Assembly: GCA_033065855.1 (NCBI GenBank)
Contig: JAVXUO010000095.1
Coordinates: 155,492-219,491, forward strand
Direction: 5' to 3'
DNA: 64,000 nucleotides
From: Escallonia rubra
Taxonomy: Eukaryota; Streptophyta; Magnoliopsida; Escalloniales; Escalloniaceae
Position numbers and translations under genes: made by a program. This document shows positions 11,134 through 58,534 of the stretch, in pieces. The notes below the pieces were generated by a model, which saw nothing but the letters and a program-made list of their open reading frames with translations, was not told the DNA's origin and made no database searches. Position 1 is the first letter of the stretch; the number at the start of each line of letters is the position of its first letter.

Positions 11134-11774
11134 ATTGCGGTGCCTCAATCAACATCATCCCTCTCATCACTTTACAGAGGGCTGGTATACCGCCAAGAAA
11201 GATCATACGTGACCCAATCAAAATCACTGGTTTTGGACAGGGCCCCCAGTCCACTATTGGCCACATCACTGTCGACCTAATGGTCGGAACTGTCCGTCGT
11301 GACACCACTTTCCATGTGATAGATAACGAGTCTTCCTTTCACCTCCTGCTTGGGCTACCTTGGATCCATATCAACAAGGTTGTTCCCTCGACGTATCCCC
11401 AGTGTGTGAAACTGGTGGCCGGTCCTGCGGGACATGAGGTAGCAGTAACCATCCCCGCCACCAAGGCCCCTTTTGAATGTGCCGAGTCTTATTTTCCCGA
11501 GGCCTCCTTCTTCACTGAACTTGCTGTAGATAGTGAGAATGCTACTCGCATCCACTCTACCAAGCTACCAGATTGGGATGAGTTGTGTGGGAACAAGCCA
11601 CCCAAACCCAAGTCCAAGTCCAAGAAAAGCCACAGAAATAAAGCATCAACCTCGACAGCGCCATCTGAAGCCCCTACCATTTCCCCGCCTTCATCCCCTA
11701 AGTCAAAAAAGCACAAGTTAGAAACCACCTTCCAGCGCGTCATCAAGGACGGAAGGGTCATCTACCAGTTATGA
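11100..11774 (+). pseudogene. Tat aspartic protease region
   Basis: The retroviral-type protease motif is visible as LVDCGASINI near 11130, with the later family motif LLLGLPWIH near 11345. The usual D[ST]GA is DCGA here, as in many plant elements. The frame differs from the gag frame before it, so a shift lies near 11100. A Lys/Ser/Pro-rich linker follows and the frame ends at TGA 11772-11774. Confidence 0.82.
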
Positions 11775-12089
11775 CAGTGTCCGGGGGGTCCGCTGCCCGA
11801 ACGCCTCGACTGCCACCCACCTACGGAGACAGAATGGTGTTGTACGGCCGAGCATTGTTCGCCAGATCACGAGCTTACCCCGGGCGCTGCACCCCCCTGC
11901 TATGAAGACGACCCTCGACCGCAGGCCGAAGATCTTGAAGAAATTAACCGGGCTGATCCGGGGGAGGAACCTCGACTAACTTACATTGGCATGAAACTCG
12001 CCCCAGGCCGAAAGAGGGACTGGTTACCCTCCTCCGCGAATATCGGGACGCGTTGGCATGGAGTTACAACGAAATGCCCGGATTAGATC

Positions 12090-18094: not shown

Positions 18095-18099
18095 CTTTC

Positions 18100-18960
18100 A
18101 ATTATAGTTTCTTTTAGATGCATTTCATGTTCATTTCCCACACACTGAGTTTGATTACCATCAAACGTCTTCTCCAACTGAATACCATTTACATCTATCA
18201 CATCACGCAAATACCAAAAACCCGCTCATGTCATCCTGACTAATGTAAGGGCATTAATATTATCACTGGTTATTGTTTTCCCTAGTTCTTTTTGTATCTC
18301 TAGCACAATATTATAACTAACATACACCATCATATCTCTTACATCAGGATCAGTCTTTAACCTTCTCAACCCTTTATCTAAAGCCAAACTAGGTGTTCAC
18401 CAGTGGAAGTAACATTTTTCCTTATATCCCTCTTCTTCTACCATTGTAACAACCTCACACAGTGAAAAGTAATCAGTGTGGCACATGTCATAGTTGTGTA
18501 TAACCCCACCCACAAAGTCCATAATTGAAATTTCCACAGTCCCCCGTGTTGCAATTCAAGAGTGAAATAATCAGATTTATTAATTGCACAAACAATTTGC
18601 ATATGACCACACATTAGGGACCGCGATCCAATTTGCAACAAAGATAACACAATGACAATACTATATGATTAATTCAATTTGCAACAAAAACAAAATATAA
18701 GTTAAACAACAAACTAAACAAAGATAACACCACTTTATTATAGTCAGAGAAATTTGGCAATCAAGATTAGAATATGAAATATAAAACAAAAAGCCTCAAA
18801 AAGATTCATGTCCCATAAATCGATATGCATAAGAAGAAGAATTAAAACCAAAAAGTCAAAAAACTTACAGTAAAGCACAAAATTCTTGAAATTGAGGCCC
18901 ATTTTCCTCTTCACCCAAGTCATTGCTCTTCGATTCAATGTTTACAGAATCGCGATCAAA
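18100..18960 (-). pseudogene. MULE transposase gene, 5' part (separated by the Tat insertion)
   Basis: Minus-strand reading of about 18560-18100 gives the N-terminal region typical of plant MULE proteins: FVGGVIHNYDMCHTDYFSLC, then LDKGLRRLKTDPDVRDMMVY. Stops (near 18397 and 18238) show decay. When the Tat element and one CTTTC are removed, this frame runs without break into the acidic stretch at 7050-6950. The region 18650-18960 probably holds the leader and an intron of the same gene. The outer end of the MULE was not located. Confidence 0.8.
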
Positions 18961-19195
18961 TCGAAACCTTAAAACATATTCAATCACTCAATAAAAACCC
19001 ATCATACAGGGACCTACGCCTAATTGACACTCTAATCTTGATTATTAGGTGTACATAACATCGAAGGAAGTCCTAATAGAAACTTAATCTCTAACGCTTT
19101 ATATGAACGTTTAACTCCCTCTTTGGTTTGATGTTATGGTGTATAGGGTTGAATTGAAGGGAAATGGACGAGATGAAGGGACGAAAAGACCCCCA

Positions 19196-19687
19196 CCAAA
19201 GCCTATTCCCACCTAAATCAAGGTATCTAATATTTAGGCACCGTGAAATATTTGAAGGAATTTCAGATGAAAATGAATTGTTTGCAAGAACTAATATCTG
19301 CAATCTTGATAACCGTCCGATTTCTTGAGGGATTTTCCCCATGATGTCATTGTCATTTAGAACAATCCCCCTAAGAAAGCTCATATTACCTATGGCAGGC
19401 GACAATGTAGCCGTTAATCCCATTGATGGCAATACAATTGCTATGACGCGTTGGAGCCTTGAGCCACAAGTTACACCTTCCCACATACAAAAATGAGTGG
19501 ATCCATTCCATGACGCCATCGTAAGAAGTGGGTCATTAGAGTTCAGTTCAGCTTTGAATGATAGCAATGCCAAGCAGTCCGCTTCGTTGCTAGGAAGCAT
19601 GGAGGAAAATGCAGATGGTGGAAGGTTGAAAAATAGGAAGATCTTTAAATAGAGGAGGGAAAGAAAATGAAAAAGTTCTGAGTCCAT
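19196..19687 (-). pseudogene. Truncated LRR receptor-like kinase fragment (LRR-XII type)
   Basis: The ORF from 19687 begins with a hydrophobic signal sequence, then an LRR N-terminal cap (EADCLALLSFKAELNSNDPL, HFCMWEGVTCG) and about four LRRs (SPAIGNMSFLRG, IPQEIGRLSRLQILVLANN). It is closely similar to the starts of the receptor kinases at 39120 and 44016. Similarity stops at LDLGGNRL near 19196, and the remaining frame to 19091 is unrelated. The rest of the LRRs, membrane segment and kinase are absent. It is a 5' remnant of a paralogue. If expressed it would be a secreted cap with a few LRRs. Confidence 0.88.
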
Positions 19688-19689
19688 TG

Positions 19690-20722
19690 ATGAAGTAGCC
19701 GGGGGAGCAAAAAAGAAGAAAAAGCAATCACATGGTTCTGTAGATTTAGCATGGAAGAGGGAAATGTTATATAGAGTCCAGTCTTCTGAGTATGGTAACT
19801 GACTGAATAACTATACTAACATGTATAATATCATTGACTACTGGCAGGCCATTAATGGCAATTGCTGGTGAACTAAAATAAAATAGTAACCTAGTGTAAT
19901 ATACTAAAGTTTAACTCTTTTAGTTGAATCATAGTCGAATCCTTTTTCAGTACCACTCCTTTTCCTTTAGCACCACGTTTAAATATACATAGAAGGCAAT
20001 GTATGCTTTGATTGAATCAAAGATACGAACAATAAGAAGGCTTAATAAAATCTAGGTTTGATGTAGAAGCCATCCGCTTGTTTGCAGGCCATTTATGTTA
20101 TATGGTCTAGTTTACAAGCCATTAACGTCACCATCTAACTTTATGCTTGGCATTTGTAATATCAACCCAGAAGGAAGAAGAAATAACTAATACCCTGAGA
20201 AGTAGGAGGTTCAATTATCATTCTTACCATCATTGAAGGAGCCCCATTCGTGTTTTACTTCTCTCCTTGGGAACAAAAGAATACTACAAGAAAGAAGAGC
20301 TTCAATTATCATCTTTGATTCCATTCATATTCTGTTTCTCTCGCAAGATTGAAAAAAATGGTATTGTTGACAGATATTCTAGTGTCACGGACTGACTCTC
20401 TTTCGATCTCTGAGGCACACATACACCCCCATCCCCAGCAAGCACACGCGCGCGCGCACACACACACACACACAAAACACCATCATCACGTTGTAGGCAA
20501 TTCCAAAAGCATCACCCTTCCAATGAGTTCCACTTTGACTAAGTAATACAAAAAGTCGTTCAGCCTATTCTTTCATCCATACCCATTGTAAGGTTCTCTT
20601 GATTAAGTCAAGGAGACAATGTCTGTGAGCTCAAGCCATCGAGAATTTGATTTTTGATTTCTGGTACTTTTTTTTATTGATAAGTCTCAGATGTAAAATC
20701 TGGCATTTTTGGTGTCTCATAT
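19690..20722. other. No gene; upstream region of the LRR fragment
   Basis: AT-rich, without recognisable coding. A dinucleotide run, mostly CA with CG, lies at about 20447-20475. Confidence 0.6.
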
Positions 20723-21583
20723 TGTGATATCCCATATCAGATATGAGATGATTTATGATTGGCATTATAAGAACCTGTCTATGAACTCATAAGTACCTAC
20801 TTGGCTAGCCTTTTTCAGGGAGGCATTGCCCTGTGGTGGGGCCGTGGACCAGGTCATTATAGATTGTATCAGAGCCGACTCTTGAAAGCTCGGGATGGGC
20901 TATCTAGTCGGGTTGTCGATGGTTAGGGGAAACGAAGGCAATCCCGAGTATATCCCATATCAAGAGGATGGTTGGGGCAACGAAGGGTGAGTCGAGGTAT
21001 ATCCCGCATCAGCTAGAGAAGAAGATTATGGGCTATGTGTGATCGAGTCTTAGTGAGGACGCTAAGGCATGTGGCGGGGAGATTATGATATCCCACATCA
21101 AATGTGAGATAATTTTTGATTGGTCTTATAAGACACTGCCTATGAATTCAAAAGTACCTACTTGGCTAGCCCTTTTGAGGGAGGCATTGCCCTATGCTGG
21201 AGGTGTAGACTGGGTTGTTACAAATGATATCAGAGTCGACTCTTGAAAGCTCGGGCTGGTCTATCCAGTCGATTTGCCGATGGTTGGGGGAAATGAAGGC
21301 AAGCCTGGGTATATCCTACATCAAGAACATGGTTGGGGCAATGAAGGTTGAATCGGGTATATCCCACGTTGCATAGAGAGAAAGATTTTGGGCTACATGT
21401 GATCGAGTCTTAGCGAAGACGCTAAGGGTAGAAGGTAAGGAGATTGTGATATCCCACATTAGATGTGGGATGATTTGTGATTGGCCTTATAAGACTTTGC
21501 CTATGAACTCATAAGCACCCACTTGACTAACCCTTTTGAGGGAGGCATTGCCATGTAGTGGGGTCGTGGATTAGGTCATTACA
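20723..21583 (+). mobile_element. TRIM element pair sharing LTRs (LTR-internal-LTR-internal-LTR)
   Basis: Three LTRs of 139 bases each (20723-20861, 21084-21222, 21445-21583) begin T[GA]TGATATCCCA and end CATTACA or a close variant. They sit 361 bases apart. Each of the first two is followed within a few bases by the initiator-tRNA-Met primer site, seen as GTATCAGAGCC or GATATCAGAGTC. Each internal region is about 222 bases and ends in a purine tract (GGCGGGGAGA, AAGGAGA). No coding capacity is present, as expected of terminal-repeat retrotransposons in miniature. The flanks CATAT and GATAT may be an imperfect target duplication. Confidence 0.9.
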
Positions 21584-21588
21584 GATAT

Positions 21589-22086
21589 TGTGATATCCCA
21601 CATAGGTTATGGGAGACTTTGTGATTGGTCTTATAAGACCCTACCAAGGAATTCATAAGTACCTACTTGGCTAGCCTTTTTGAGGGAGGTATTGTGTTAT
21701 GGTGAGGCCGTGGATCGAGTCGTCATAGATAGTATCAGAGCCGACTCTCGAAAGTTTGGACTGGACAATCCATTCAGGTTGTCGTTGGTTGGGGCAAACG
21801 ATGGCAAGCCCAGGAATATCCCACATCATGAGGATGGTTGGGGCAACAAAAGGTGAGCTAGGTATATCCCACATTGGCTAGAGAGGAAGATTACGGGCTA
21901 TGTGTGATCGAGCCTTAACGAGGAAGCTAAGACATAATGTGGGGAGATTATGATATCCCACATCGATTATGAGAGAGTTTGTGGTTGGCCTTATAAGACC
22001 CTGCCAAGGAACTCATAGTACCTACTTGGCTAGCCTTTTTGAGGGATGCGTTACCCTGTGGTGGGACAGTAGATCGGGTCGTTACA
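21589..22086 (+). mobile_element. Second TRIM copy, adjacent
   Basis: LTRs at 21589-21727 (139 bases) and 21949-22086 (138 bases), 360 bases apart, have the same primer site (AGTATCAGAGCC) and internal region. It begins only five bases after the preceding array ends. With its neighbour this makes five LTRs and three internal regions. Confidence 0.9.
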
Positions 22087-22619
22087 TTTATTAAACAAGA
22101 ACGTGGTTTAAGGCTCAAGTTTGGTTAACCATAGCTAAATGAACAAATCAAGCTGAGCTGAACCTTCTGAACTATTTCATAAAACCAATTTCGAGCAAAC
22201 TTTTTAGTCTCTTAGACAAACTAGAGCCGAGTTTGATCATGCCTTCTATTTAAGAACTTGATATGTATACGGCCCTAAGTGCCGGAAGGGTATATATGTA
22301 AAGTGAGTATTAGGCCGTTGGTCATGAGTAAAATGTCTAACATCCAATGCTTAGGCCGAAAGTCAGGGTCCAAGGCTCTGTTCTTTCTCTTTTTCAAACT
22401 TTCCAAGCTCTGAGGTCTTTGTGAGAGAAAGTACAACTACTTAATGTTCCCAATATCAATTCTCAGGCAACTAAAAATGTCTTGCGACGTGTGTCATAAG
22501 TCGTGGCAATCCATAGAAATCCACTGACAAAAGACTTCAGTTCATTGTCAATAAGAACACATCTCTTCACTCCGCAGTAAGTCTATAGGAGATTGTCAAA
22601 CGGCTTTGGTAGTCGATCG
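22087..22619. other. No gene; possible hAT relic
   Basis: No coding seen. The stretch 22100-22260 has a weak resemblance to the AAACGAGCCGAG-type repeats of the hAT element at 50821, but no ends were found. Confidence 0.4.
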
Positions 22620-23297
22620 CACTGTTATCAAAGGCGCGTGCCTAGGTGCAAGGCGCACTCCCTGCACCTCGTCTAGGGCTAGGCGCAGCCCCTTCAAAAA
22701 GGCGCGCGCCTTGAGCGCTTAGGCACCCAAGTGCAAGGCGGTGGTGGAGGCACAAAAAAAGCCCAAAAATCCTATTTTTTTATTTTTGCGTCGTGGCATC
22801 ATCTCAACCGTTCATTATTTTTTTTATTCTTGGTTTCATGACATGATAAATCTATATGTAAACCACAAAAATACCTAAAATCCCTAATCAACGATTATCT
22901 TATTATTGTTCATTTTGCTAGTATATCATCCCTAATTGTTACTCTCTTTTAAGTAAATCTACTCCTTCACTTCACCTTGTAGATGAAATTGAAGAGGAAT
23001 CTCAACCAGACTGAGGAGCCTATGATTTCCTTTTGAGGAAAACATTGTTGCCTTAGCCCTCACTGATAATGAGAATGACATTGTTATATTCACTTAGGAT
23101 TAACTACTTCTCATTGGATTTGAAACTTTTTCTAGTGTTCAAAATTTATTAAATTGCCATGTTCTGAATTTTTTTAGGTGATTATATTGGTTTAATGCAC
23201 TAATATCTATTTATGTTTATTTTGCGCCTCACTTCGAAGCGCCTAGGCTCCAAGGACCCTTTACGTCTTAGGTGCGCCTGCGGCTTTAATAACTATG
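22620..23297. mobile_element. Non-autonomous hAT element, 678 bp
   Basis: Ends CACTGTTATCAAAGGCGC and CTTTAATAACTATG are imperfect inverted repeats. The subterminal GCCTAGGCGC-like motifs match the better preserved element at 31398-32507. The flanking octamers GTCGATCG and GCCGGTCC agree at 5 of 8 positions, as expected of an old insertion. Confidence 0.7.
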
Positions 23298-24160
23298 GCC
23301 GGTCCCCCCTCTCTGCCCCCCCCCCCCCCCCGCCCGTTCCCCACCCACTCGCTCTCCCCTCCCAACATGTAAAGTTTAGTGATAAAATAAGGAAAGTGAT
23401 ATTTGAATTTCATTTTTTGCATTTGAGCTAACAAGCATTGCCAAAGTGAATCTAAAACGATATCTAAAATACCTTTATGGATGCAAATGGAGGTCATACG
23501 GCCAAAAGTGGAACTCAAATTTTAATATACCAGAAGCATAATATAAGGGGGCAAGAGGCTAGGCCTCCCAAAAGTTAATATCTTTCATTTAGATGTTGTA
23601 ATCACTATTATTTCTTTCTGAATTGTAAAGTGGGCACCATTTTTCTACTTGCTTTTTTATTTGCCTATGCATTCAAAGTTTTCCATTATCCTCTATGCAG
23701 GTCTATTCTTCTGCCTTCGTTCTCTTGCCATCAGGTTTTCTTCTTCCTTTATGGTTGCATTTGATGATATTATTTAAATTTAGCCATGCGAAATACGAGT
23801 CATTTGAGTCATAAGGACAGCGAGATCGCCACTAGTTCATATTAACTCTAAGTTTACACAGAGCTTATCCTGCTTAATGGTGGGTATATGCATGCTATGT
23901 TCAATTTACATATACAAGTTATGCATCTAGCCCGTTTTAAAAAAAGCCTCAAAACTGGGTCTTTGATTCTTATGCTTACTGATTACGTGTCGGAATTATA
24001 CATTTAGCCCGTGTTAAAAACCAAAATATTACAAGTAATGGCAGTCCACGGTTAAGAAAATTTTAACAGGTTTTACATGTCAGTTTACTGATTAGGCGAT
24101 TTAGGTATGGTTCTGTAAAATTTGTCATTTTCTTTACACTTTCTACAACAAAAACAATGC
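23298..24160. other. No gene
   Basis: No coding recognised. A long C run (about 23319-23333) is present. Confidence 0.6.
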
Positions 24161-42615: not shown

Positions 42616-44015
42616 GGATCTGACTGATAAAGTTAATGATCCAGATTATATAGAGCTCGTGTAGGAACATATTTAGTTATTTACCCCCTTCTATGTCTGT
42701 GGTCCAGGACCATTTGTTTCATTTTTCTACCTTGGATATGGCGTGCCTTGTAATGGTTCATCACAAATAGGAATAGCAGTATATATCAAGTTTATCATGT
42801 ATATCAGTTGGCTGCTTATTTATTGTCCAATGATCATGTCAGTTTGACCTCCATACAGCTTTACTGTTATGTCCAGTTTACCATCTATTACGAGTTTATC
42901 AAGGTTACCGTAACTAGAAAGGTAGAACCAATTATGGCTAATTTAGAAGATTTTAAATGTTGATAAACACAAGCGCTGAGCAGTGATTGAATATAGCTGA
43001 CATGGCCAATGATAATATGCAACTAACAGAGTAATAACAGAACCAGTAAGATCCTGAGAATGTCTGAGCTAAACCACGAGGGAAAACGGAGTGTAAGGCT
43101 AATAAATTTGGAAGCTAAGAGATGCCAAAAGCATTGTTTTTCAACTAGCAAAGCGCCGCAGATAATGACTCCGTCAGCCAGCACAAAATAAAATGTTTCA
43201 AAAGCATAGAAAACCATAACAGCAGATAATGGACTTAGAATGACTCCAGAATTTAAGAATGCATATCTTTTATGTTGAGTCACTCAAAAAATTGCATCCA
43301 CCTAAACTTGACTTGATTTCTTTATCCTGCAAGCATTCACAATTTCTAAAGGTTACTTTTAAAATGATGAAGGATGCGTATTGCAAATCGACTCAGAAGG
43401 TAAAAATATCAATCTTGACTGTTCTGTCCCCCAGGTAGATAGGGAAGAGGGTTATCGGCAGAGGTTCAGATGGAAATTGTGCTGCCTGTTCCAGGCTCTA
43501 AAGTAGTGCGTTGATTTTCCTGCTGGTAAAAGTTCCATTTTAAACAACAAAGTTTGATCCCTAGCTCCTAGCTCTTCAGCCTATTACGTCTGCAAGATTT
43601 TTGGTGGCAAAACATCCAAGCAGCAAAACATGGAGAATTTGTTAAAGAAGCTTTCGCAGTGGGAACTAAACACAAAGTCATTTCCAAGTCAAGTTGTTGC
43701 CAAGTCAAAGATGGAACGAATTTTCCAATAGAAAAGTCAAGAAAGAAGAAAAGATAAACAACATAGCAAGAAAGTTGCTTAAATAATGTGCATCAGAGGC
43801 TGGCTCGTGTAGTATACACAATCATGTCAAACTAGACTGGTATTGGCAACTCAATCATACCATATGCAATTGAGACTGAATTATATATAACCACCAACGA
43901 CTGTTACAGGGAACGGCCGGCAAAACCAACCAGGCAACCAAATAAGTTCAGAGAAAACACTTCCCAATATCCACATACCAAAGTGAAGATTATATATGTT
44001 GCTCCAACCCACACA
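42616..44015. other. No gene; spacer between two receptor kinases
   Basis: AT-rich, no recognisable coding or transposon ends. The promoter of the next copy presumably lies in the right part. Confidence 0.6.
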
Positions 44016-47000
44016 ATGAAGTCAGTTTGTATGCATGTCTTCCTTCCGACCTTCACCATCTTCCTGTTTGGTAACCTTCCCTCCATGCTATCCTCCACGG
44101 TTCCTGGAAACGAGACGGATCACATGGCACTGCTATCATTCAAGGCTGGACTAACCACGCAAGACCAGCTTCAAGTAATGGCTTCGTGGCACAAATCCAC
44201 CCACTTCTGCAACTGGACAGGCGTAGTCTGTGGGAGAAAGCACCAGCGAGTCATATCAATCAGATTGAGCTCGCAGGGACTGACTGGTCCATTGTCCCCT
44301 GATATCGGGAACCTGAGTTTTCTTAGGGAGCTTTTCCTCTATGACAATGGCTTCACAGGAAATATACCTCAGGAGATTGGCAAGTTATCCAGATTAAGTA
44401 GTTTAGCACTTGGAAACAACTCGTTTTCGGGTGAAATTCCTGCAAACATTTCGCAGTGCCTGAACCTTGTAGAACTTGACTTGGGTGGGAACAATCTAGT
44501 TGGCATAATTCTAATGGAGTTTCAGGCAGTGTTAAAGCTTCAGCGCCTATATGTTGACTCAAACAATCTAACAGGACACATACCTGCTTTCCTTGGAAAA
44601 TTTTCAGACCTTGGCTATATTTATGGACTGCGCAATAATTTCCAAGGGAGTGTTCCAGATACCCTTGGCCGGCTGACAAAGCTAACTGAAATTGGTTTCG
44701 CTGGGAATAAACTGTCTGGTACTCTTCCTCCTTCAATTTTTAACTCATCGTCTTTAGTTTTGATCGACTTTCCAGATAATCAAATTGAAGGGAGTCTTCC
44801 ACTAGACATCGGGTTAAGTCTTCCAAGAATCGAAGGATTGAATCTTGCAGGGAATCAGTTCATTGGAAACATCCCTGTTTCAATATCGAATGCCTCGCAG
44901 CTTGTTCGTTTGGCGCTCAATCGAAATGGCTTTACTGGAGGAGTCCCCAATTTCAATAAACTTCAAAATCTGCAGTGGCTTGCACTTAGTGGCAATCAAC
45001 TTGGAAATGGTGCAACCGATGACTTGAGTTTTTTCCCCTCTTTAATCAACTGTACAAATTTACAGCTACTGCAGTTGGCCGACAATAATTTTGGAGGGGT
45101 CTTGCCTAAATCAATAGGGAACTTATCCGAGCTCAAGTTTTTCACTATCGGAGGAAATCCACTACAGTCTACAGGGAAGCATCCCTACCGAGATAGGGGG
45201 GCTTGCCAACATCGAGAGATTGTACCTGGGCCCCAACCAATTCAGTGGTAGTATTCCGGATTCAGTTGGAAATCTTCAAAAGCTGAAGCTGTTGTGGCTC
45301 TCTGGAAACAAATTGTCTGGGAACATTCCTTCTTCATTAGGAAACTTAACCTTATTGATCAGCCTCTATCTAGGAGGTAATAACCTACACAAGGGAGTAT
45401 ACCACCTACTATTGGGAAGTGTGAAAATTTGCTTTTGATGTACCTTTCTCAAAACAGCCTCAGTGGTTATATACCGAAAGAAGTTTTTAGTCTGTCTTCC
45501 CTATCGATATCTCTAGACCTGTCTTCTAACCGTTTAACAGGCTCCCTTCTTTTGGGAGCAGGTGACTTCCAAAACTTGGCTTCGCTGAATCTTTCGAACA
45601 ACATGCTATCCGGTGAGTTTCCGAGTAGTCCCGGCAGTTGCACAAGTTTGACGGTGTTATCTGTTGCTGGTAACTTATTCCAAGGAGGCATACCTCAATC
45701 TTTAAGTTCTTTAAGAAGTATAGAAGTTCTAGATCTGTCACGCAACAACTTGACTGGGGAAATCCCCGAATACATGCAAAATTTTCAGTTTTTGCTGAAC
45801 TTGAATCTGTCCTTCAATGATTTTGAAGTTGAAGTGCCGGTAGAAGGAGCTTTCCAGAATGTAAGTAAAGTACTGCTGGACGGAAATAGTAAGCTTTGTG
45901 GGGGAGTTCCAGAGTTGAAGTTGCCTAAATGTGCCACCAGAAATGCTTCAAACAGAAATAAAGTCTCTCATGCACTGGTGCTAATAATACCAATCTCTTG
46001 TGGAGTTCTGGTGCTAATTGTTGGTTTCTGTCTTAGTTTACAGTCTCAAAAGTGTCTTATCAAAGTCTTTATAGAGCAACCGATGGATTCTCTTCAGCTA
46101 ATTTGATTGGTTCGGGAAAGTTCAGCTCCGTATATAAGGGAATTCTTGAGGAAACAGTTGTTGCTGTTAAGGTGCTTAACCTTGAAGTTCACGGAGCGAT
46201 CAAAAGCTTCATGGCCGAGTGCGAAGCATTGAAAAGTATCAGGCATCGGAACCTAGTGAAAATTTTGACTTCTTGTTCTAGCATTGATTTTCAGGGCAGA
46301 GATTTCAAGGCTATTGTCTATGCATATATGGTCAGTGGGAGCTTGGATGAGTGGTTACATCATGATCCTATAGTAGGTGGTGGAAATGAGGAGCGAAGGA
46401 GCTTAAGCCTGCTGCAGAGGTTAAACATTGCAATTGATGTGGCTTGTGCACTTGATTATCTTCATAATAACTGTGGAACAACATTGGTTCATTGTGATCT
46501 GAAGCCGAGTAATGTTCTTCTGGACATCAACTTAGTTGCTCATTTAGGTGATTTTGGGTTGGCAAGGTTTCTTCCTCAGACCACAAATGCATATTCCACT
46601 AGCCAAAGCAATTCTATGGCAATAAAGGGGACGATTGGTTATGCAGCTCCAGGTATCTATTTCTGTGCCTCTTACTGTCCCTTTCTCTTTCTCTTAGTTC
46701 TTCTGACTCTCTTTCCCATTTTCTTGATATTAGTTTCCGGGTTGTCCAATGCACTAGTCTATGGCTTTCTTTTTTAAGCCAGAAAGGTTAGCATTAAAGT
46801 AGAAAGTGTATATAGTTTATGCTGAGTATGTTGTCTGATTCAGAAGTCGAGCATAAATGGGGGAACACAACCAAACCTAAACTTATATTAGCAACTTGGC
46901 TCAATTAAATCTCTTTAGATAATCAAAGAACACTTGAAGACTTGAGACCATGGCTGGGTGTATGCCAAAACATGGCGGCAGGCCTAATATTGGGGACATT

Positions 47001-47693
47001 GCTACATCAGAACAAAAGTGGTTCAGATTTCTTCACAAGTTTCAGAGTTGTTTAGAGAAGGAACTGTGTGAAGACCTAGGTTTTTGATCCCAAAGGTGAG
47101 CCTGGGGCAAATATGAAAGTGGCAGTTGATGCTCTCTCTCTCTCCCCCTCTCTCCTCCCCCCTCCCATACATTGCATTTTGTGAGATAGAATTCAAAACA
47201 CTAAAAGAACTACATGGTTGTTTATGTTGTTGCAGAATATGGGATGGGCGCTGCTTTGTCAACTTACGGCGATGTATACAGCTATGGAATCCTCTTATTG
47301 GAGATATTTACAGGAAAAAGACCCACTGATGACATGTTTAGTAATGGTCTCAACCTTCACAAGTTTGCTGAGATGGCTATACCCAGCCGAGTTACGGAAG
47401 TCTGTGATCCTGTACTTCTCTATGATGAAGAGCAAGACCATCCTGAACTTCTCCAAGATGAAGAGCAAGACGAGACAAGAAGGAAGAACCTTGCTGCAAC
47501 AGGCAATCAGGCAAATCCCGAAAAACTCAAGGATACCCTTGTTGCAATATTTACAATTGGAATAGCTTGCTCAAAGCAATTACCAAGAGAACGAATGGAC
47601 ATCGTTGATGTCACCAATCGTCTGCATTCCATCAGGGACACTCTTCCTGGGAGTATTGGGCGGAAGGTCACTGGGAGACTTGAAGTGATATGA
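44016..47693 (+). pseudogene. LRR receptor kinase, subfamily XII, second copy with frame lesions
   Basis: Tandem paralogue of the gene at 39120, with the same domain order. The start at 44016 gives a signal peptide (MKSVCMHVFLPTFTIFLFG). The LRR frame breaks near 45177 (one extra base) and again near 45391 (two extra bases). The 71 codons between are in another frame, after which the first frame resumes. The membrane segment (ALVLIIPISCGVLVLIVGF) then runs straight into the kinase near 46043 with a third frame change. About 20 juxtamembrane residues present in the neighbours are missing. Kinase motifs are good: LIGSGKFSSVYKG, VAVKVLN, LVHCDLKPSN (non-RD), DFGLARF. The intron is 46653-47235, with the second exon at 47236-47693. 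Only an odd splice or assembly error would rescue it. Confidence 0.88.
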
Positions 47694-48598
47694 CTTGTTA
47701 GTCTCAGTTTTGTGAGATCGCTCTGTTATGTGATTTAAAGTTAAAATTTAGTATCCTAACCTCTGCCTCTGTCAGCCAGGCATGAGAGGAGTTTCCCAAA
47801 CGACCAAGGGGACATGTCTCACAAGGACTAAGCATGTAAATGCTAACAGAATAAGGTCAATCTTAAACGTATCTAATGCATCTGAATTTGTAGGCTCCTA
47901 GCAACCCTTGTAACCATTGTTACATTCCTACTCTTGTACAGAGCTCTAGCAACTCAGAGATGATGGACAGCACCAGGAGCACATCAATCGCATCCAACCA
48001 AAAAACAAAAGAAAAAACACATCTTGGAACGAGTTCTTTAGGAGGGATGTAATGATCATTAATTCCTCAATGATGTGCCCCTTCACGCCTCCACACGTTC
48101 TAAGTTACCATTCCCCATTCCTTTGTTGATTGTGTCAATGCATGAGTACATTATTATTCCTACATCTTCTTGTGCAATCAGCCGACTAATTGGTAGGACA
48201 ATGTCTACGATTGTGTCTGTATTCTACAACTCTGAGTATTCTTACTTCCCTCATCCATTTTCTTCATTCTATTCTCTTGTAACCTCAGAAATGCTTGTCC
48301 GTTATTCTCAGAAACCTTTTAGAGTGATGTTAGTCGTGAACAACATATGCAGCAATCTTCCTTTTCAAATACTGGTATGAATTATCATTCGTCAAACAGT
48401 AGGTGGAAGAAGCAAAAACATCATATATGGAGGAAAATGAGGATGAAGAAACCTTAATAATGTTAAGCATAAACAGAATAGCAAGGCACAGAATGACCTG
48501 GAAAGACAAACTGAAAAATTTAGCGTAGCCACAGAGATAAGTAAGAAGGGAGCTAGATATGCTCCACTATTAACTTATTAAATCATTACGTCATTGAT
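47694..48598. other. No gene; spacer between convergent genes
   Basis: The second and third receptor genes end tail to tail here. Presumably 3' untranslated regions; nothing else recognised. Confidence 0.6.
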
Positions 48599-50743
48599 TT
48601 ATCGATCTTCCTCACGAGGTGTCCTCCTTCCAAGAAAAGTGTCCCTGATTGAATGTAGCTCAATGGTGACGTCGCTGATGTTCATTCGTTCCCTTGGAAG
48701 TTCCATAGAGCAAGCAATTCCAATCCTTAAAATGGAAGTGAGGCATTGATTGATCTTTTCGTATTTTTTATGAGTGGAAACTTGATGGCTCCTAGATGTC
48801 TCCTCTTCTTCCTCATTTTGGAAAAGTACAGGATCAGAGATCTCCGTAACTCGGTCAGGTACAGCAACTTTAGCAAAATTATGAAGGTTCAGACCATTAA
48901 CGAACATGTCATCAGTGGGTCTTTTTCCAGTAAATATCTCTAACAGCAAAATTCCATAGCTGTATACGTCTCCAGATGTTGAAATCTCACAGCCCATCCC
49001 ATATTCTGCATGGTTAGTTTGTAGAATATTAGTTCTTGTTCGATTATATCAGCATTTTCCCTAACAAATAATTAACGAAGAGTTGTTTTCATCTTTATTT
49101 TTCTTTGTGAAAACACATGTATCTGCAGGCTTTTTGGGAGGTGCATGTTCACTAATGAAGTGCACCACTAGTCCTTTTTTCCAATTATGTTTTAAATTAA
49201 TTTTAATTTTTGACTTTCCAGAAACGAAGTATACCACTAGTCCTTTTTTCCTTTATAGCAGATGAGCAAAAAATTGAGATTCCAGCCTCTACAGTAAAGA
49301 AAGAGAGTTACCTGGAGCAGCATACCCAATGGTCCCCTTTATTCCAATAGAACTGCTCTGACTCGTAGAAAATGCATGTGTAGCCTCTGGAAGAATTCTT
49401 GTCAACCCAAAATCACCTAGATGAGCCACCAGGTCAATGTCCAACAGAATATTACCTGGCTTGAGATCACTATGGACTAATGTTGTTCCACTGTGATGAT
49501 GAAGATAATCAAGTGCAGAAGCCACATCAATTGCAATGTTTAATCTTTGCAGCAGGGTTAAACCTCTGTTCTCCTCGTTCCCACTATCCACTAGAGTTTT
49601 CTGATGCAACCACCCATCCAAACTCCCATTCGCCATGTACGAATATACAAGTGCCTTAAAATCATTACCTTGAAAATCAATAGTAGAACAAGAGGTTAGA
49701 ATCTTTACAAGATTTCGATGCCTGATATTTCTTAGCGCTTCACACTCGGCCATAAAACTCTTGGATGCTCCTCGAACTTGAAGCTTGAGTACCTTCACGG
49801 CAACAACTGTTTGATTTTCTTCTAAAATTCCTTTGTACACAGAGCTGAACTGTCCCGAACCAAGTAAATTGGTTGAAGAGAATCCTTCGGTTGCTTTATA
49901 AAGACTTCCATAAGACACTTTGAGGAGGATGTCCCCCATTGAAGAGTTTGATAGGGAAACCTTCTTAGCAAGCCTACGTTTGTATACAAAAACAAAAAAG
50001 AACGCCAAAATCAGCAACACTATCCCACACGATAATGGTATAGCGAGTTCCAGGACACGAGATACTGCATGCTTGGTGCCACATCTAGGTAGCTGTAGAT
50101 CTCGAACACCCCCACAAAGCTTACTATTTCCATCAAGCGTAACTTCACTAGCATTTTCGAAAAGTCTTCCCGCTGGCACCTTCCCCTCAAAATCATTAAA
50201 CGACAGATTTAAAGTAACAATCACTTCAGATGCATCAAGAGAAATCTCCTCAGCCTCTATGCGCCGCATTATTTTATACTCCCCATTTATTTCTTCGCGT
50301 GATTGCCGTCCTTGCTTCAAAAGTTGTTCAAGCTTGTCTCGTCCAAGAGAGTGTCCAGTAAAAAGCATTGGCACATTTAAAGCTCCAGATAACAGAGCAG
50401 CAGAGTTACCTGCATCTGCATAATGTCCATGGATTGCAACAGGCCAGACAGGTTGCCCACCACCAATTTGCTCTCCAAGAACTTTTGATATCTGCATAAT
50501 GTGGCTAAGTGCGCCATCTACGAACTCTGGAATGTGGGGCCAAAGAAGTTCTTTTGGAATATATTTCCCGTTGGGGCCAAAAGGTACACGGACTATATAA
50601 GCACCACTGCTCTCCCCAATTTCTTGCGTCGAATTTTCACTGGTTATCGGATTTAGCATCTCCGTCGGTTCACCGTAAGTCCGATCTACCTCAGGTGCAG
50701 ATATTTGTCTAGTTAGTAGATCAACCCGATAAACTCCAGCCAT
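48599..50743 (-). CDS. Chimeric gene: sucrose-phosphate synthase fragment fused to LRR receptor kinase
   Basis: Exons 50743-49312 and 49005-48599, joined across a GTAACT...TGCAG intron of 306 bp, give one open frame of 612 residues. Residues 1-177 are a clear piece of plant sucrose-phosphate synthase, with [52 protein letters not shown] and [20 protein letters not shown]. This is part of its N-terminal GT-B (GT4) domain. The UDP-glucose-binding half is absent, so no synthase activity is expected. At 50212 the frame passes directly into an LRR-XII receptor: last LRR ([13 protein letters not shown]), cap ([16 protein letters not shown]), membrane segment (about 231-254), and kinase with [37 protein letters not shown] and the conserved C-terminal exon. 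HSD replaces the family's HCD. There is no signal peptide. The start is the natural SPS methionine in [12 protein letters not shown]. The fusion is seen in sequence; expression is unknown. Confidence 0.88.
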
Positions 50744-50782
50744 CGCTCCTAAAGCCCTGGCCAGTTCTACAACGTACTTAAC
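50212..50782 (-). other. Captured sucrose-phosphate synthase exon with its own splice acceptor
   Basis: SPS similarity begins exactly after an acceptor (CTCTGTACTCAG, AG at 50784-50783) with [20 protein letters not shown] and ends at DASEVIVT near 50212. In intact SPS the preceding residues are DTGGQ, which must lie on an earlier exon; they are not found upstream here. Keeping an intron edge means the piece came from genomic DNA, not from a spliced transcript. In-frame codons from 50782 to the ATG at 50743 are open, so a spliced transcript from further upstream could also enter the frame. Confidence 0.85.
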
Positions 50783-50820
50783 CTGAGTACAGAGAAAATC
50801 TAGTCACGAGGGGTTGTGAT

Positions 50821-51861
50821 TAGAGCTGTAAATGAGTAAATGAACAGAGTTGTTCACGAACAGCTCTCTCAAAAACTCATTCATGTTCGTTCATATAATA
50901 AGTGAACCGAACACGAACACAATTTTAGGACTCGTTTATTAAACGAGCCGAGTTTGAACATAATGATGTTTATTTATTTATGTTCGTGAACAAAGGAGCT
51001 CGTTTACTTAACGAGTCGAACACGAGCCGAGCCTTATAAACGAACATCAGTTCATTTATTCATTAAAAAATAAATCTACAAAAAATATCTACCTTATGTT
51101 GGGACATGGAAGCTTGTGGATCACCCATGCTTCATCTCTCTCTCTCTCTCTCTCAAAGTTCATTTTCTTCATCTCATTAGACACAAACTCAACAAACACC
51201 CACACCGCTGGCCAATACTCGTAGTCATCATACAGGCACATCGCCGGCCAGACCACCAGCCACACCGCTGGCCAGACCACCGCCCACGCCGCCGGCCAGA
51301 TCATCCCCCACGCTACGACCTTCTCTCAGACGATCGAACAGTCGTCAAAGACCCTCTGCTCTCTCTCTCATCACACAAGCACACCGCCGGCCAAATCATC
51401 GCCCACATCGCTGGCTAGACCTCCGCCAAGTCAGGCCAAAGCCCCACAAACGCAGACCTCCGCCAAGTTAGGCCAAAGCCCCACAAACGCAGACCTCCGC
51501 CAAGTTAGGCCAAAGCCCCACAAACGCAGATGCTCCTCCACACAAATCTGGCATCCCCCGATCAGATCTGGGATATTTTACGACTCCAAGTCTTCAATAT
51601 TTGAGAAGATCCAGAAATACGTCTTCATCTTCTTCTCCGGCCGTTTTTCCGGCCATTTTTTTTATTGTTGATTCAGTTTCTCTCTTTAGACGAACGAGCC
51701 GAGTCGAGCCTGAGTTGTACGTTGACGAACTCGAGCCGAATTCAAACACCCATGTCTGGCTCCTAAACGAACACGAGCCGAGCTCAAACACCCCTGAAAT
51801 TATAAGAACCGAGTTCGAACACACCCATGTTCGGCTCGAACTTGGTTCGTATACAGCCCTA
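50821..51861. mobile_element. hAT element, 1041 bp, just upstream of the chimeric gene
   Basis: Ends TAGAGCTGTAAATGAG and CGTATACAGCCCTA are inverted repeats. They are flanked by a perfect 8-bp target duplication GTTGTGAT (50813-50820 and 51862-51869). The subterminal parts repeat GAACGAGCCGAG-like motifs in both orientations. It sits 39 bases from the SPS exon, within what was the SPS intron. No transposase was seen. It may supply or disturb the promoter of the chimera. Confidence 0.93.
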
Positions 51862-51869
51862 GTTGTGAT

Positions 51870-53574
51870 ACGGTTATATCGGCGAAGGACCAGACTACCG
51901 GAAAGAAACACGTTCACTTTCGAGTGGGAATTCAATATTTTGAATTTTTCCTTTTTTTTTAGGTACTGTAAAATGCATTATACATTTTATTTTTGGAGAA
52001 TATGCAATTTGGCTCCATGTATTTAGACCATTGTGCGGTTTCACCAGCCTATTGTTTAAATTTTTTTACTAAACCTACCTCAACTCTCTGATGCACATTC
52101 GACGAATATTCATTCAACTTAACCAACCTTTTGGGTTAAGAAATGTTTGGTGCCCCTTAAAGACTAAAATGCCTTTTTGGTCTTTTTTTTTTGTTGGTAA
52201 ATGCCTTTTTGGTCTTTAAAGGGCACACAAATACATATACACCCCCGCCACGATCCATCCCCCCCCCCCCCAAATCAACCAGAAAGAGACACACCCAGCA
52301 TTGCACACACGCGAGTTCTCCCTTCGTCTCCAATCCCATCATTCACCACCACACACAAACACACTACACGCACAGGCACACCCACGCATACAGCGCGCGC
52401 GCGCACATACACACACACACACTGCAGGCACACACGCACATGCACTGCATGCATATCCAAACACACGTGTGCATGTACACACACCCCCACTCTCAAATGG
52501 GTCGGTCGAGAAAGAAAAGAAGCGCAAGAATGGTTGCCGATTCAGTCATACTTTGACGATAGTGGGTGATAGGCGGGGGGGAAGGGGGCACACCACCACA
52601 TGTGGGTGGGTGTTTTGTGTGTGTGCAGGGTGATAAGGGATGAGAGGTAAGCCGTCAATTGCTTGTGGTGTGTGCTTGTGGGTGATGTAGGGATGGTGGG
52701 TGCAGGCAGGTTTACCACCGTATGTGGGTGTTCGTGTTTCTATGTGTGTACAGACAGGTTGTGTTATTGGTGGGTTATTGGGGATGGAGGTGGTGTGAAG
52801 GTGGGTGACTAGAGGGTCGGATGGTGAGGTGGTCGCACCTCCGTGTGAGGGTAGGTATTTTGTGTATGCATGTGCGTAGGTGGGTGATTGGGGGGGAGTG
52901 GGTTGTTTATCTATGTGCTAGGGGTAGGTGGGAGGATGAAAAAAGTTAGAAAATGGTTTTGGTTTTGAAATATTTGTGGATAAAAAGTGGTATTTTGAGA
53001 TTTCAATGGAATCTGTTACAGCTGATCCACTGTGCATTTTTTCGAGAGTATAAGAGCTTTTGTACAATGTTTTTAACAATAGAGGGCCAAACCACACAAA
53101 GGTTTAAGGACGGGGGGCGGGGGGGGGGGGGGGGGTTGGGTTTGCAAAGTGCAATTTCCCCTTTACTTTTTTCTTTTAACTTGATTGCAATCATTTCACC
53201 TTTGAACTAGCTAAAACCCGTAATATGCGCAGAAGCATAATCATCTACACCAACCTTTGACCAGATTACATTGTAGAGTAACTATAAACAAAAGTGGCCC
53301 AATATACAAACCTATAACCAAGTATATACAGTGCTACGTGTCTATGTGATAACTTTTGGACTACATATCCATGTGCTACATCTTCTTCTCGGCAGTCTAG
53401 CAAAAGATTGGGAATCTAATTAGTAGATATTATAGGTAAATGCTAGTCATGGAGTAATGAACTGAACTGACTTTTAAATATTAGAATATCTACTCAGATA
53501 TCGTTATTAAATGCGTACAAACATTATTCCTCCCAATTCAACCTTGGTACACGTGTAAGACAGAAACAGATCCC
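51870..53574. other. No gene; microsatellite-rich
   Basis: A C run (about 52258-52271) is followed by a CA-rich microsatellite (52280-52490), then GT/GGTG-rich sequence to about 52920 and a long G run (53114-53136). A short duplication of AAATGCCTTTTTGGTCTTT lies at about 52169-52218. The ORFs here are repeat artefacts. The left 250 bases may be remaining SPS intron. Confidence 0.6.
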
Positions 53575-54516
53575 CTGCTGTTTTGGAATCTACAACAGGG
53601 TGTTGTGGCCAAAATTTCAACCATCCATTAAGATCTAAAGGCCATACTCAGGCCACGTCATTTTGAAAAATTAAAAAGCGTTAAGATAGTAACGGAGACC
53701 AACATAACCCCAAAAGCCACCGTAGCCTTGCCATCTCCACTGTTGTGCACTCCATTACTGCTAGCACCACCACTCCTTAGTCGCTACACCCACCACCACT
53801 CCCAAGTTGCTACAGCACCATGCCGCTCAACACCCACTGCCAATTCCAAGCCACTACACCCCGCCACCACCACCTTCATCATCTGACACTTGAACCGCCA
53901 TCACGACGCCTACAACCACCAACCTCACCATAAGCAGTAGCACCACCACCATCATGGATCTGTTAAGATCTAAGCCATCACCGCTAGTGATCCAAGATTT
54001 CATCATCACTACCGCATCGCCACCCATCTGCTCTTCCAGCAGACATGCCTCATTCACCAACACCATTATTGACCAAACCACCATCCCACTACAGACGTGT
54101 ATCACCCTACCCACCAGAAATAACCCACCCATCGGTCTTTCACCAACTGCCATAAAAGCTGGCTACCACCAATAATAACTGTCGAGGATAAAGCTTGGCC
54201 CACTAGCATTCGTTTGACCGCAACTAAAATCCAATGGGTGAGGAATTTGTTTCATTGAACTAGGAGCAAGATGACAGTAGTCCATTGGTCGGAGGTGGTG
54301 GAAATGTTAACTGGAATATATAAGCTGAGAGACGAAGGGACGTGCCTTGGAAGGTGAGAGACGAAGGGAGTCACTCTCACGGTGGACTGTTGCTGCTCCA
54401 TCAGAGCTAAACTATGTTTTATTAGCCATGCCCACGTAGTATTACCCTGGCCTTCATATCCTAATGGACGGTTGAGATTTCGGCCACATCACCCTACTGT
54501 AGATTCCTCTACAGCA
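53575..54516. mobile_element. Long-TIR element (MULE-like), about 940 bp
   Basis: The left end (from GGAATCTACAACAGGGTG at 53585) and the reverse complement of the right end (GGAATCTACAGTAGGGTG) match for about 65-80 bases, including TGTGGCC, TCAACC and TCCATTA. TIRs this long suggest a Mutator-type element. A 9-bp target duplication was not found, possibly because the LINE adjoins the right end. The interior is CAC/CCA-rich and has no recognisable product. Confidence 0.65.
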
Positions 54517-54567: not shown

Positions 54568-57500
54568 TTAAACATCAGTGTTCTGATCATCTTCCAAATT
54601 TAACAAAAGATTGGAAGACAATGGAACAAAGTCAAAAACTTTACAAAAGAAGGCATTTGCCGCCAGATTATGAGTTGCATGGTTTGTCATTCGAGGAGAG
54701 TACATAGTATCCCAGCAAGTAAAACTATTCAAACAAATCTTGGCTTGTTCAATGGTTGCTCTGATTCTCCAATGAGGGGCAAGAGTCTGGTCCAGAAGTA
54801 ACTTTATCACCAGTTCTGCATCTCCTTCCAGGATGGTGTACTGTCTCTTCTCAAGAGATGTCGTACGATGGTTAGAAGGGATGCATAAGCTTTCCGAGTG
54901 CAACCAAATTCAGTGCAACCAAATTCAAAATGTCTTTCCGAGTTCCTACAAACCATTGATGCGCATGCTCTGTTTCTTCTGATTGCCGCATCAAAATTTA
55001 ATTTGGTCCATCCAACAAAAGGAGGGATCCACTACTTCAGGTTTGGATGCTAGTTTTTGGTATCACGCTTAAGGTCCAGTATATCTTTAGTTGATGTATT
55101 GATGCCTTCAGCCAGTTTAAGGTGGTTGAAAGGGGTCCCTTCATGTACCAGCTTATTTTGATTTAACCAGACCAATTCTAATACACAAACCGCAAAAGTA
55201 GTGTACCTTCCTTGATCTTTAGGTTTAAGGCCAGGAGGATTTAGAATAAAATCCAACCATTCAATGTGGGAGTTCAATCCAGACGGAGGCCGGCAACCAA
55301 AAGTCGAGGCTGCCCAAATAAGCCAAGTTATGTTGCACTCTAAGAAGATGTGCGTAGCAGTTTCAGGTCGCATTTCACAATGGGGGCAACTGGGACCTGT
55401 GTTAGGGCATATTATGGCTAAAGTTTGTATGAGGGGGAGCAGGTTCCATGCAATATGCCAGATCAAAAATTTGTGACGCTCACGGATTTTGATTCTCCAT
55501 AATTATTTCCAGAAATTTCAGGGAAACATGGGATTTTGAGTGAATTTGAGTTTATTTGCAATCAAATAGGCTGACCTGGTGGTGAATATGCCATTTGCAT
55601 TTGGGGTCCAAGCTATCACATCTTAGGATTGATTTGGTGGGATTTAGATCTTTCGGATGGCCTCCGTCGTTTTCGGATCGAAAAGGTTTTGGATTTTGGG
55701 GATGTTCCAAGATGTAGTTCCAAGATAAAAGAGATCTGCCACCAGATTAAGAATGTGTAGGTTTAGATTTACACTAGCATGGCTGAAACCCTCGTCAAAA
55801 CGAATCCAGCAATCATTCCAGATATTTGCTGACTTGTCGTCACTAATTAGGACACTGATACCTTTTCTGATGATTTATTTCGATTTGCAGATACCTTTAC
55901 ATAGCCACGAAGTAGACTTTTTTGGGATGTCCTCTAGGAAGGGAGTACCTCGGAGGTACTTTGATTCCATGATTCAGACCCACAGTGACTTTGGGTTTTT
56001 AACTATTGCCCAACCCATCTTTGCTATCAGAGCTAAATTAAAAATCGTGCATCCTTTTAAATCCTAAGCCTCCTGCCGATTTGGGGATGCAGATCGAATC
56101 CCAGGCCTTTGGATGAAAGTGGTTCTTTCCATCATCTTTGAATCCCCACCAAAATTGTCGCAGTCTTTTACCCAGCCTCTTTGTAGTTTTCTTTGGGATG
56201 ATGAAAGTGGACATGTGATAGGTCAGAATTGCCATTGTTGTGGCCTTAATAAGTGTAGCTCTCCTAGCTTGAGAAAGAACTTTACTTTTCCAGCTAGCCA
56301 GTCTTCTTTCCATTCTCTCAATAATCTCCGCAAAAGCTCTATTTTTGGATGGTTCGTAAAGATCGGGAGGCCCAGATATTTAGTCTTTTTGGGGGCCGTC
56401 TTGAACTCCAAAATCCTGCATATATTTCTCTGGGATTCGTAGTTAAGATTTTTGCTGAAGTATATTTGAGACTTTTGCCTGTTGGTGCATTGCGCTGACC
56501 AGGAATTGTAAGTTTCAAGGCATTTTTTGACATTTTCAGCTTCAAGATGGTTGGCCCTGCAAAATATAATCAAATCATCAGCGTAAAGAAGATGCGATAT
56601 TGGTGGGCTTCCCCTACTGGGCTTAATGCCATGGATACTTCCATTACTTTCTGCTCGGAGAATTAATCTGGTAAGAATTTTTGATGCAATGATGAATAGA
56701 TACGGAGACAAAGGATCTCTTTGTCACAAATCCCTTTGAGGTTTTATGAATCCATATGGGACACCATTCCGAATTGTGGAAAAGCTGGTTGTGGTGATAC
56801 AAGCATATACCCAGTGAATCCAGGTTTGGGGGAATCAAAGATTTTGAAGGATGGTAATGATAAAAGACCACTCAATTTTGTCGTAAGCTTTCTCCATATC
56901 TATCTTGATAGCCATGAGCCCCGAGCCTTTTTTCTTTCGTATGGAGTGCCAAATTTCTTGGACAATGATGATATTGTCATTTATCAATCTCCCAAGAACA
57001 AAAGCAGATTGCATAGAGGATATGATTTTTGCAAGTAGCGGTTTTAGCTTGTTTGCCAAGATTTTGGAGATCACTTTGTGTGGTTGATCTCATTAAGAGA
57101 AGAGTCTTCAAGCAAACCTCCGGGTTGACAGACTTCCAGTAGGATTTGTATAAGAGAGCAGGCATTCCATTGGGTCCATGAGCTTTAAGCTTGTCAAAAT
57201 TCATTAGCGTAGATGTGATCTCGCTAATTGAAGGAACTTCATGTAGCATAGATATATCATCCTCTGATAGAACAAGGGATATGAGGCCTTCAAGATCTGC
57301 AGGGAATGAGGGATTGGAAGATTTGTACAGGTTCTAGAAGTGTTCCGTAAAACAGGTGCCAATCTCTTCTCGACTTGATATCCATTTTCTGTTTTTGTCT
57401 TTGATGAAGTCGATTGAGTTCTTCCTTCTTCTGATAATGGTACTCAGGTGAAAAAAATTTGTATTCAAATCTCCTTCCATTTTCCACTGGATTCTAGATT

Positions 57501-58534
57501 TCTGGTGCCATAGCCACTCTTCCCTGCGGCATTGCTCATATATCTGTCTTTTTATGTTTTCCATAAATTCCAGATTCATGATGGAAGGTTCTTGTTGTTG
57601 CAGGGAGTCCAATTTCTCTGATAATCTCTTGATTTGAGTCTGAATATGTCCAAAATAAATTTTTTGGAGAGCATGACTGGAGTTGTCAGTTTTTCGGCAC
57701 AAAATGAACTCTGGTGCTCCAGTCACTGGCGTCCTCCATGCTAAATTTACAACATGATGAGAAGAAAGGTCTCGAGTCCAGGCTGCTTCAAACTTAAACG
57801 GTTTTGGCCCAGGATGAGTTGTTTTTGTGAGTTTTGAGAACAATTGGGAGATGGTCTGAAGATTTCCCCAGAATACGTGTGACTGTGGCCTCCAAAAATA
57901 AAGTGCGCCAGCTTGGGCTCGCATAGGCTTTGTCTAATCTTTCTTTTATGTTAGCCAAGAGGGGCCTATTATTGCTCCAAGTGAAAGGATTGCCTGAGAA
58001 CCCTAGATCAATTAGGTGATTTGCACTGATGAGACTAATCAGGCCACCAGTAGATGAAGAAGAGAACTGTCTCCCAGATTTTTTCTCCGCTTGACTTGAT
58101 ATATCATTAAAATCACCTATACATACCCAAGGACCAGTGAAAGCTTTTGTAATGATGTCCAAATCATCTCAGAATTTCCTTTTGTTTTTCCAGTGTGGGG
58201 GACCATATACTGCCGAAAGCATCCACGGGCAGTTTGGAGGATTTGAGAAAACAAGCGCATTTATGATATGATTGTTCTGTAGAGTGATCTTTATATCCAC
58301 ACCCATTTTCCAGGCAAGGCAAAGGCCTCCAGCAGGTTGTTTTGTACTAGAAGGTGGAACAAAGCACTGATTAAGAAATCCAAGAGAGTCTAGAATAGAT
58401 GAGAGATTAGAAAAGGGGGAGAGGGTTTCAGAGAGAAAAATGATGTCAGAGTTGAGGTTCATGACATCAGTTTTGAAGGCCATGATGCGTGAGGCATGCC
58501 CAAGCCCTCTGGCATTCCAAGTGTAGATGATCAT
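54568..58534 (-). pseudogene. LINE ORF2: endonuclease, reverse transcriptase, zf-RVT, RNase H
   Basis: Right to left: AP endonuclease (58534-58169, WNARGLGHASRIM, IIFLSET, AVYGPPHW; continuing 58162-57794 with CIGDFNDISSQAEK and SSDHLPIVL); linker (57924-57334); RT (57249-56038, with AHGPNGMPALLYKSYW, SAFVLGRLINDNI, IDMEKAYDKIEWSF and the catalytic LLYADDLIIF); zf-RVT (55466-55050, with CPHCEMRPETATHIFLEC); RNase H-like C-terminus (54903-54568). The frame changes between blocks are too many to encode one protein. Confidence 0.88.

Follow-up and report, generated by a model that had tools for sequence, protein, structure and literature searches.

A young fusion of sucrose-phosphate synthase and LRR-XII-type receptor kinase sequences in Escallonia rubra, most likely a neutral by-product of deletion

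Escallonia rubra carries a gene in which a fragment of sucrose-phosphate synthase (SPS) is joined, in one uninterrupted frame, to the membrane segment and kinase of an LRR-XII-type receptor. We consider it most likely that this gene is a young fusion made by deletion, and that it persists as a neutral by-product of that event. Unfused relatives of both parents lie together on another contig of the same genome (C1417), the breakpoint is legible to the base and the kinase half carries no detectable signature of constraint.

Architecture of the chimeric gene

The window analyzed here, 64,000 nucleotides in full, is the end of contig C197. The chimeric gene occupies 48599-50743 of its minus strand as two exons (50743-49312 and 49005-48599) that make up a single GT-AG-spliced frame of 612 codons. 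Such an in-frame chimera was proposed in a preliminary description of this DNA, and the proposal holds: the frame is free of stops, SPS sequence ends at 50213, receptor sequence begins at 50212 and the intron at 49311-49006 opens with GT and closes with AG. The encoded product opens with 177 SPS residues and continues into the last LRR, the membrane segment and the whole kinase of the receptor. Three annotation entries of E. rubra describe this 612-aa protein, as RJ640_000782 in the window and elsewhere as RJ640_018060 and RJ640_018061.

The SPS portion is an exon fragment of 190 codons (VKYVVEL...ASEVIVT; 50213-50782, minus strand), 97% identical to C1417:197047-197616. A remnant of the adjoining SPS intron with its acceptor (ctgtactcag; 50783-50804, minus strand) has been retained, and its bases 50800-50804 also match a remnant of the SPS 5' flank. 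Because the upstream frame crosses the former splice acceptor, where the intron ends at 50783, all 190 SPS codons (50782-50213) are present, with 177 of them after the ATG. These codons of one exon, from the N-terminal GT-B half, are what the chimera shares with plant SPS, and they are 81-88% identical to the SPS proteins among the listed rows of a protein search. Unlike SPS, the chimera lacks all upstream exons and everything downstream. Only residues 193-383 of a full SPS from Liquidambar (P0123; 1,058 aa) were matched in the window, and the rest of the protein found no match anywhere in it; likewise, its similarity to the bacterial enzyme 2r60 is confined to residues 57-188 of the 190 in the piece. 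The chimera does not hold both GT-B halves of an SPS, and the part 3' of residue T177, absent here, presumably includes the UDP-glucose-binding half. With the remainder of SPS unmatched in the window, neither a catalytic site nor catalysis is expected of the piece.

The receptor part of exon 1 (49312-50212, minus strand) extends from the end of the last LRR through the juxtamembrane region, the membrane segment and the kinase N-lobe to the activation segment. A GT-AG intron of 306 bases (49006-49311, minus strand) follows the motif GTIGYAAP, a position common to the paralogues R1 and R2, and exon 2 (48599-49005, minus strand) supplies the C-lobe and stop codon. The kinase is closest to At3g47570/Xa21-type receptors, the listed matches being named At3g47570-like, Xa21 and RLK-Pelle-LRR-XII-1, and its key residues are present as judged by eye. 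Its catalytic loop is non-RD, with HCD, the form typical of LRR-XII receptor kinases, in two of the three chimera copies, HSD in the window copy and HRD in none. Kinase, membrane segment, last-LRR end and intron position are all held in common with the LRR-XII receptor kinases (Xa21/EFR/At3g47570 type), and the receptor DNA shares 96% identity with a full-length receptor gene of E. rubra, on C1417. Unlike those receptors, the chimera begins in SPS sequence and has neither a signal-peptide-like start nor an LRR ectodomain. Hydropathy analysis detected one strong membrane segment at residues 233-253, followed by YKRR; no segment starting within the first 60 residues was hydrophobic in the way a signal peptide requires, in agreement with the earlier claim that none is encoded. 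If made, the product would be a signal-anchor or cytosolic kinase, with topology either way.

The breakpoint and the unfused relatives of both parents

When the SPS half was searched against the DNA of the same genome (a 566-Mb assembly), there were 6 matches in all: the chimeras on C197, C2006 and C2005 at 100%, C1417:197047-197619 at 97%, C1332 at 78% and C2273 at 71%. The receptor half yielded at least 64 matches among those listed (best 40 of 145 candidates scored). The three chimera copies came first, followed by two C1417 copies with 96% identity and by relatives whose identity was 80% or less. Homology of both C1417 receptor copies to the chimera starts exactly at the junction. The near copy, R1 (C1417:158751-160364), is a receptor with a 926-codon stop-to-stop frame containing LRRs and a membrane segment, followed by exon 2; by eye, its start is signal-peptide-like. 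The SPS gene of C1417 runs on the same strand as the receptor, from 199489 to 190946, and is whole but damaged, with a TAG at a Trp invariant across 53 aligned rows and two apparent frameshifts that could be base errors of the nanopore assembly. This SPS copy looks like a pseudogene. On C1417, which may be allelic or paralogous to the window locus, two tandem receptor blocks some 67 kb apart (88650-93158 and 155891-160364) are 95-97% identical in their two longest matches, and frames are broken in the receptor copy near 93 kb.

Collinearity between the window and C1417 extends to either side of the junction: 43634-50212 corresponds to C1417:153752-160364 (94.6%), and 50213-50804 to C1417:197047-197638 on the same strand (97%). 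The fused state therefore lacks the intervening C1417-type interval of 36,682 bases (160365-197046; ~36.7 kb). Both parents lie on one strand in the unfused copy and their flanks are collinear with the fusion, as a fusion by deletion demands, all but 12 kb of the interval having been read, at 160365-168999 and 181000-197046. The breakpoint (50212-50213, minus strand) joins C1417-type 197047 to 160364, falls within an SPS exon and within the last LRR, and is blunt, with 0-1 base of microhomology. These alignments make deletion the best explanation of the fusion. C1417 would represent the older state, since it keeps both whole genes and since a receptor of E. herrerae, RJ639_001960, has an LRR ectodomain; this protein shows 96% identity to R1 along 79% of its length, and the gene model itself is without part of the kinase.

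The proposed course of events begins with an ancestral layout, still found on C1417, in which an SPS gene and an LRR-XII-type receptor gene shared one strand, with SPS upstream. The window lineage would have lost the 36.7-kb interval, and with it the 3' part of SPS, the intergenic DNA and the receptor's start and LRR ectodomain, after which the ends would have been joined blunt and in frame, probably by end joining. Synonymous distances from C1417 are similar for both halves (SPS dS 0.046; kinase 0.071 to R1 and 0.041 to R2).

The SPS flank has been altered further. A 21-base remnant of the SPS 5' flank (50800-50820, minus strand; C1417:199773-199753) abuts the intron remnant, whereas the 5' flank proper, homologous to C1417:199766-203253, lies at 51862-54511 (minus strand; 89% in block 51862-52160 and 82% in block 52361-54511). 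The upstream SPS coding pieces of C1417 have no match in the window. The abutting remnants indicate that a second deletion took out the upstream SPS coding exons. Between remnant and flank sits a 1,041-bp hAT-like non-autonomous transposon (50821-51861, minus strand) with the termini TAGGGCTGTA/TAGAGCTGTA and the 8-bp target duplication ATCACAAC. It is repetitive in the genome, with at least 66 matches among those listed (best 40 of 1,259 candidates scored). The loss of the upstream exons would have been a separate event, and it and the insertion of the element in the SPS 5' flank may have come before or after the fusion. Two other routes for the SPS sequence were considered and ruled out: retroposition, as flank and intron remnant came along, and capture by the hAT-like element, as the element ends and the 8-bp target duplication lie outside the SPS exon. 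On C1417, upstream of the damaged SPS gene, 204997-207192 holds a 732-codon open frame that is hAT transposase-like by eye.

The preliminary description had raised assembly error as an explanation of the junction. According to the available text of its report, the E. rubra genome is a Canu nanopore assembly polished with Illumina reads (PMC10759652), and a misjoin of two loci would fit a draft of this kind with contig ends nearby. The junction occurs three times in the assembly, in C197, C2006 and C2005, contigs that are not fully independent since, by their coordinates, they share an end region of ~15.5 kb (6.5 kb compared). A misjoin, however, needs shared sequence, and the parents have none at the join, so that no overlap was available to cause one. 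Moreover, the three contigs place the junction at the same base while differing mutually elsewhere, and two more structural events lie in the same flank. A misjoin was rejected on these grounds, and there is hardly any chance that the chimera arose from one.

Across the 6.5 kb compared, the three contigs are separated by 31 single-base differences and 8 gaps, one gap being an end effect of the cut. The transposon accounts for 21 of the single-base differences, other non-coding DNA for 7 and coding sequence for 3. Their density is alike in coding sequence (3/1,839 bases, all residue-changing) and in other non-transposon DNA (7/~3,600). With the window copy as reference, the two other copies share the coding differences S425C and I432V, and C2005 has N392K in addition. 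C197 is alone in having Ser 425 and Ile 432 in the catalytic loop, where the others have Cys and Val; this may be a young variant or a base error. C197 and C2006 are 96% identical to the left of 47432 and >99% identical to its right. Against window positions 47428-47432, C2006 contains ~6.9 kb of extra DNA (~16476-23396) with a 5-base duplication, as the insertion of an LTR retrotransposon leaves.

The fusion is set in a cluster of duplicating, decaying receptor genes. Adjacent to it, a receptor-kinase gene on the plus strand (43634-47693), collinear with C1417 from 153752 onward, has decayed in the window contig; its counterpart in C2006 is broken at a different place, and exon 1 of the C1417 counterpart is open. 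The decayed paralogue reported at 43983-47693 was thus confirmed in the window, and for a truncated paralogue reported at 19091-19687, an open reading frame and a partial match were seen and nothing further. By eye, the window also contains overlapping frames resembling Ty3-type retrotransposon gag and reverse transcriptase (9380-13489) and, on the minus strand, frames like LINE-type reverse transcriptase fragments (56223-57924).

Substitution patterns and survival of the frame

For the kinase half, changes unique to one among the window, R1 and R2 were counted, with a transition weight of 4 (our choice) and an expected non-synonymous share under neutrality of 0.70. The window copy has 7 synonymous and 15 non-synonymous changes of its own (S7/N15; P(N<=15)=0.50), or S7/N13 (P=0.39) without the two changes particular to C197. 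Full-length R1, at S12/N10 (P=0.0135), looks constrained; R2, the frames of which are broken, stands at S2/N14. The window-unique changes fit neutrality, a verdict of low power because the substitution patterns of chimera and R1 do not differ significantly (Fisher P=0.22). In a comparison with E. herrerae over 200 residues, 13 residues differ in the chimera, 5 in R1 and 6 in R2.

The SPS half was polarized with C1332 as outgroup, giving S2/N3 for the window and S0/N4 for C1417, with 4 synonymous and 3 non-synonymous sites unassigned. Column counts of the SPS alignment placed two of these non-synonymous sites on C1417 and one on the window, and the change at codon 166 was transferred from the window branch to that of C1417, as the Asn of this codon occurs in at least 90% of rows. 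After reassignment, the window has N3 and S2-6, and C1417 has N7 (one of them a stop) and S0-4. For the window branch, P is 0.45, 0.11 or 0.02, depending on the four unassignable synonymous sites. The branch is compatible with neutrality, or with constraint if all four of these sites are the window's.

Measured against older paralogues, long-term dN/dS is low for both halves (0.08 and 0.19), which mostly reflects pre-fusion history. The earlier statement that both halves are well conserved is therefore to be qualified: identity is high, but owes more to youth (dS 0.04-0.07 from C1417) than to any demonstrated constraint. Of random changes, 2.9% create a stop, and considering substitutions only, the chance of a stop-free frame is 0.44 after 28 substitutions and 0.39 after 32; indels fall outside this estimate, so that the true chance of an open frame is lower. 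The frame is intact in 3/3 chimera copies, which counts against the neutral reading, as do the key kinase residues kept, as judged by eye, and the small number of amino-acid changes in the SPS half on the window branch. So, too, does a survey of Oryza: according to its available text, four species yielded 310 fusion genes, over 44% of which are expressed, and 90% of gene pairs are under purifying selection (PMC9199173), a proportion that weighs against assuming neutrality by default.

It is improbable that the fusion created an expressed kinase relieved of its ectodomain, for which SPS flank and exon would furnish promoter, leader and start codon, the SPS part being a mere passenger. Such a product, membrane-anchored or soluble, would act constitutively or as an interfering partner of the sister receptors. 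The kinase is complete with its catalytic residues and preceded by a membrane segment, a full-length sister (R1) exists, SPS 5' flank lies upstream and no ATG occurs in the 117 bases before the start codon, all of which would suit this role. However, the hAT-like element and the second deletion separate the flank from the start codon, hydropathy gives no sign of a signal peptide and the substitutions of the kinase half fit neutrality. Under the preferred reading of a neutral by-product, what remains is a potential protein in which ~177 residues of SPS half-domain precede a membrane segment and a kinase that keeps its catalytic residues, the likeliest fate of which would be weak or absent expression, or mislocalization without receptor function. 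The E. rubra gene models are backed by transcript and protein sequences, by Pfam domains or by both, according to the available text of the genome report (PMC10759652), and for this reason annotation alone is no proof of expression.

The SPS half in comparison with known fusions

The preliminary description likened the chimera to immune receptors with integrated domains, with a sugar-metabolism domain in place of the receptor ectodomain. There is little chance that the kinase is regulated by its SPS half-domain, in the manner of an integrated domain, through sensing of sugar phosphates or binding to SPS. The SPS half is free of stops, its identity to plant SPS reaches 88% and the window branch shows few amino-acid changes within it. 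Yet it corresponds only to residues 193-383 of a full SPS, and it departs from six positions that are at least 90% conserved in 52 SPS rows, where the other rows have a median of 2 departures and a maximum of 8. An AlphaFold model of the fragment, built with 53 rows, reached a mean pLDDT of 55 with residues 1-49 below 50, which is weak evidence; the whole chimera, with a mixed 30-row alignment, had a mean of 49, and since its kinase was also poor, that model is uninformative on the SPS half.

Nor does the junction recur in a second species among the proteins listed. The exon-1 translation matched 6,117 proteins, the best 120 of which include the three chimeras, all from E. rubra; the SPS part matched 2,956, and of the 120 listed, the three E. 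rubra chimeras alone carry a kinase among their listed Pfam domains. Two further SPS proteins, P0122 (Sarracenia purpurea) and P0195 (Asimina triloba), are named "putative protein serine/threonine kinase" with no kinase among their listed Pfam domains, likely a misnaming. A literature search on fusions of SPS and receptor kinases returned nothing on the subject, as judged by title or abstract start, and a search of a plasmid collection gave no match.

NLR-IDs, the integrated-domain immune receptors, resemble the chimera in that foreign sequence shares one frame with part of an immune-type receptor. In contrast, the chimera has no NB-ARC, and its foreign piece is an incomplete domain that sits where the ectodomain was deleted. 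A complete foreign domain kept across species, as expected of an integrated-domain receptor, was not found, the chimera being confined to E. rubra among the 120 listed rows of each search. The likeness to an integrated domain is thus unsupported: the LRRs were deleted and not exchanged, the SPS piece is partial and its nearest SPS relative is pseudogene-like. A parallel is offered by fusion genes formed from nearby genes, which are not rare in plants; like those in the available text of the Oryza survey, the chimera unites two genes in one frame, with relatives of the parents still in the genome (PMC9199173). It differs from them in that the joining deletion is readable to the base.

Together, these findings present a clear case of a receptor-gene cluster capturing a piece of a foreign gene, with the exact breakpoint and the unfused relatives of the parents in the same genome. 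They also counsel caution, as an open and conserved-looking chimeric frame this young can persist by chance, with a probability of some four in ten when substitutions alone are counted, and does not in itself constitute evidence of an integrated sensor domain. We think it very doubtful that expression is driven from the SPS 5' region and that the kinase acquires a new partner or location through the SPS half-domain; if so, binding to intact SPS or to nearby membranes, for example, would put an immune-type kinase beside sucrose synthesis in one plant lineage. Should transcripts exist, the chimera would provide a test case of the very early life of a fusion gene.
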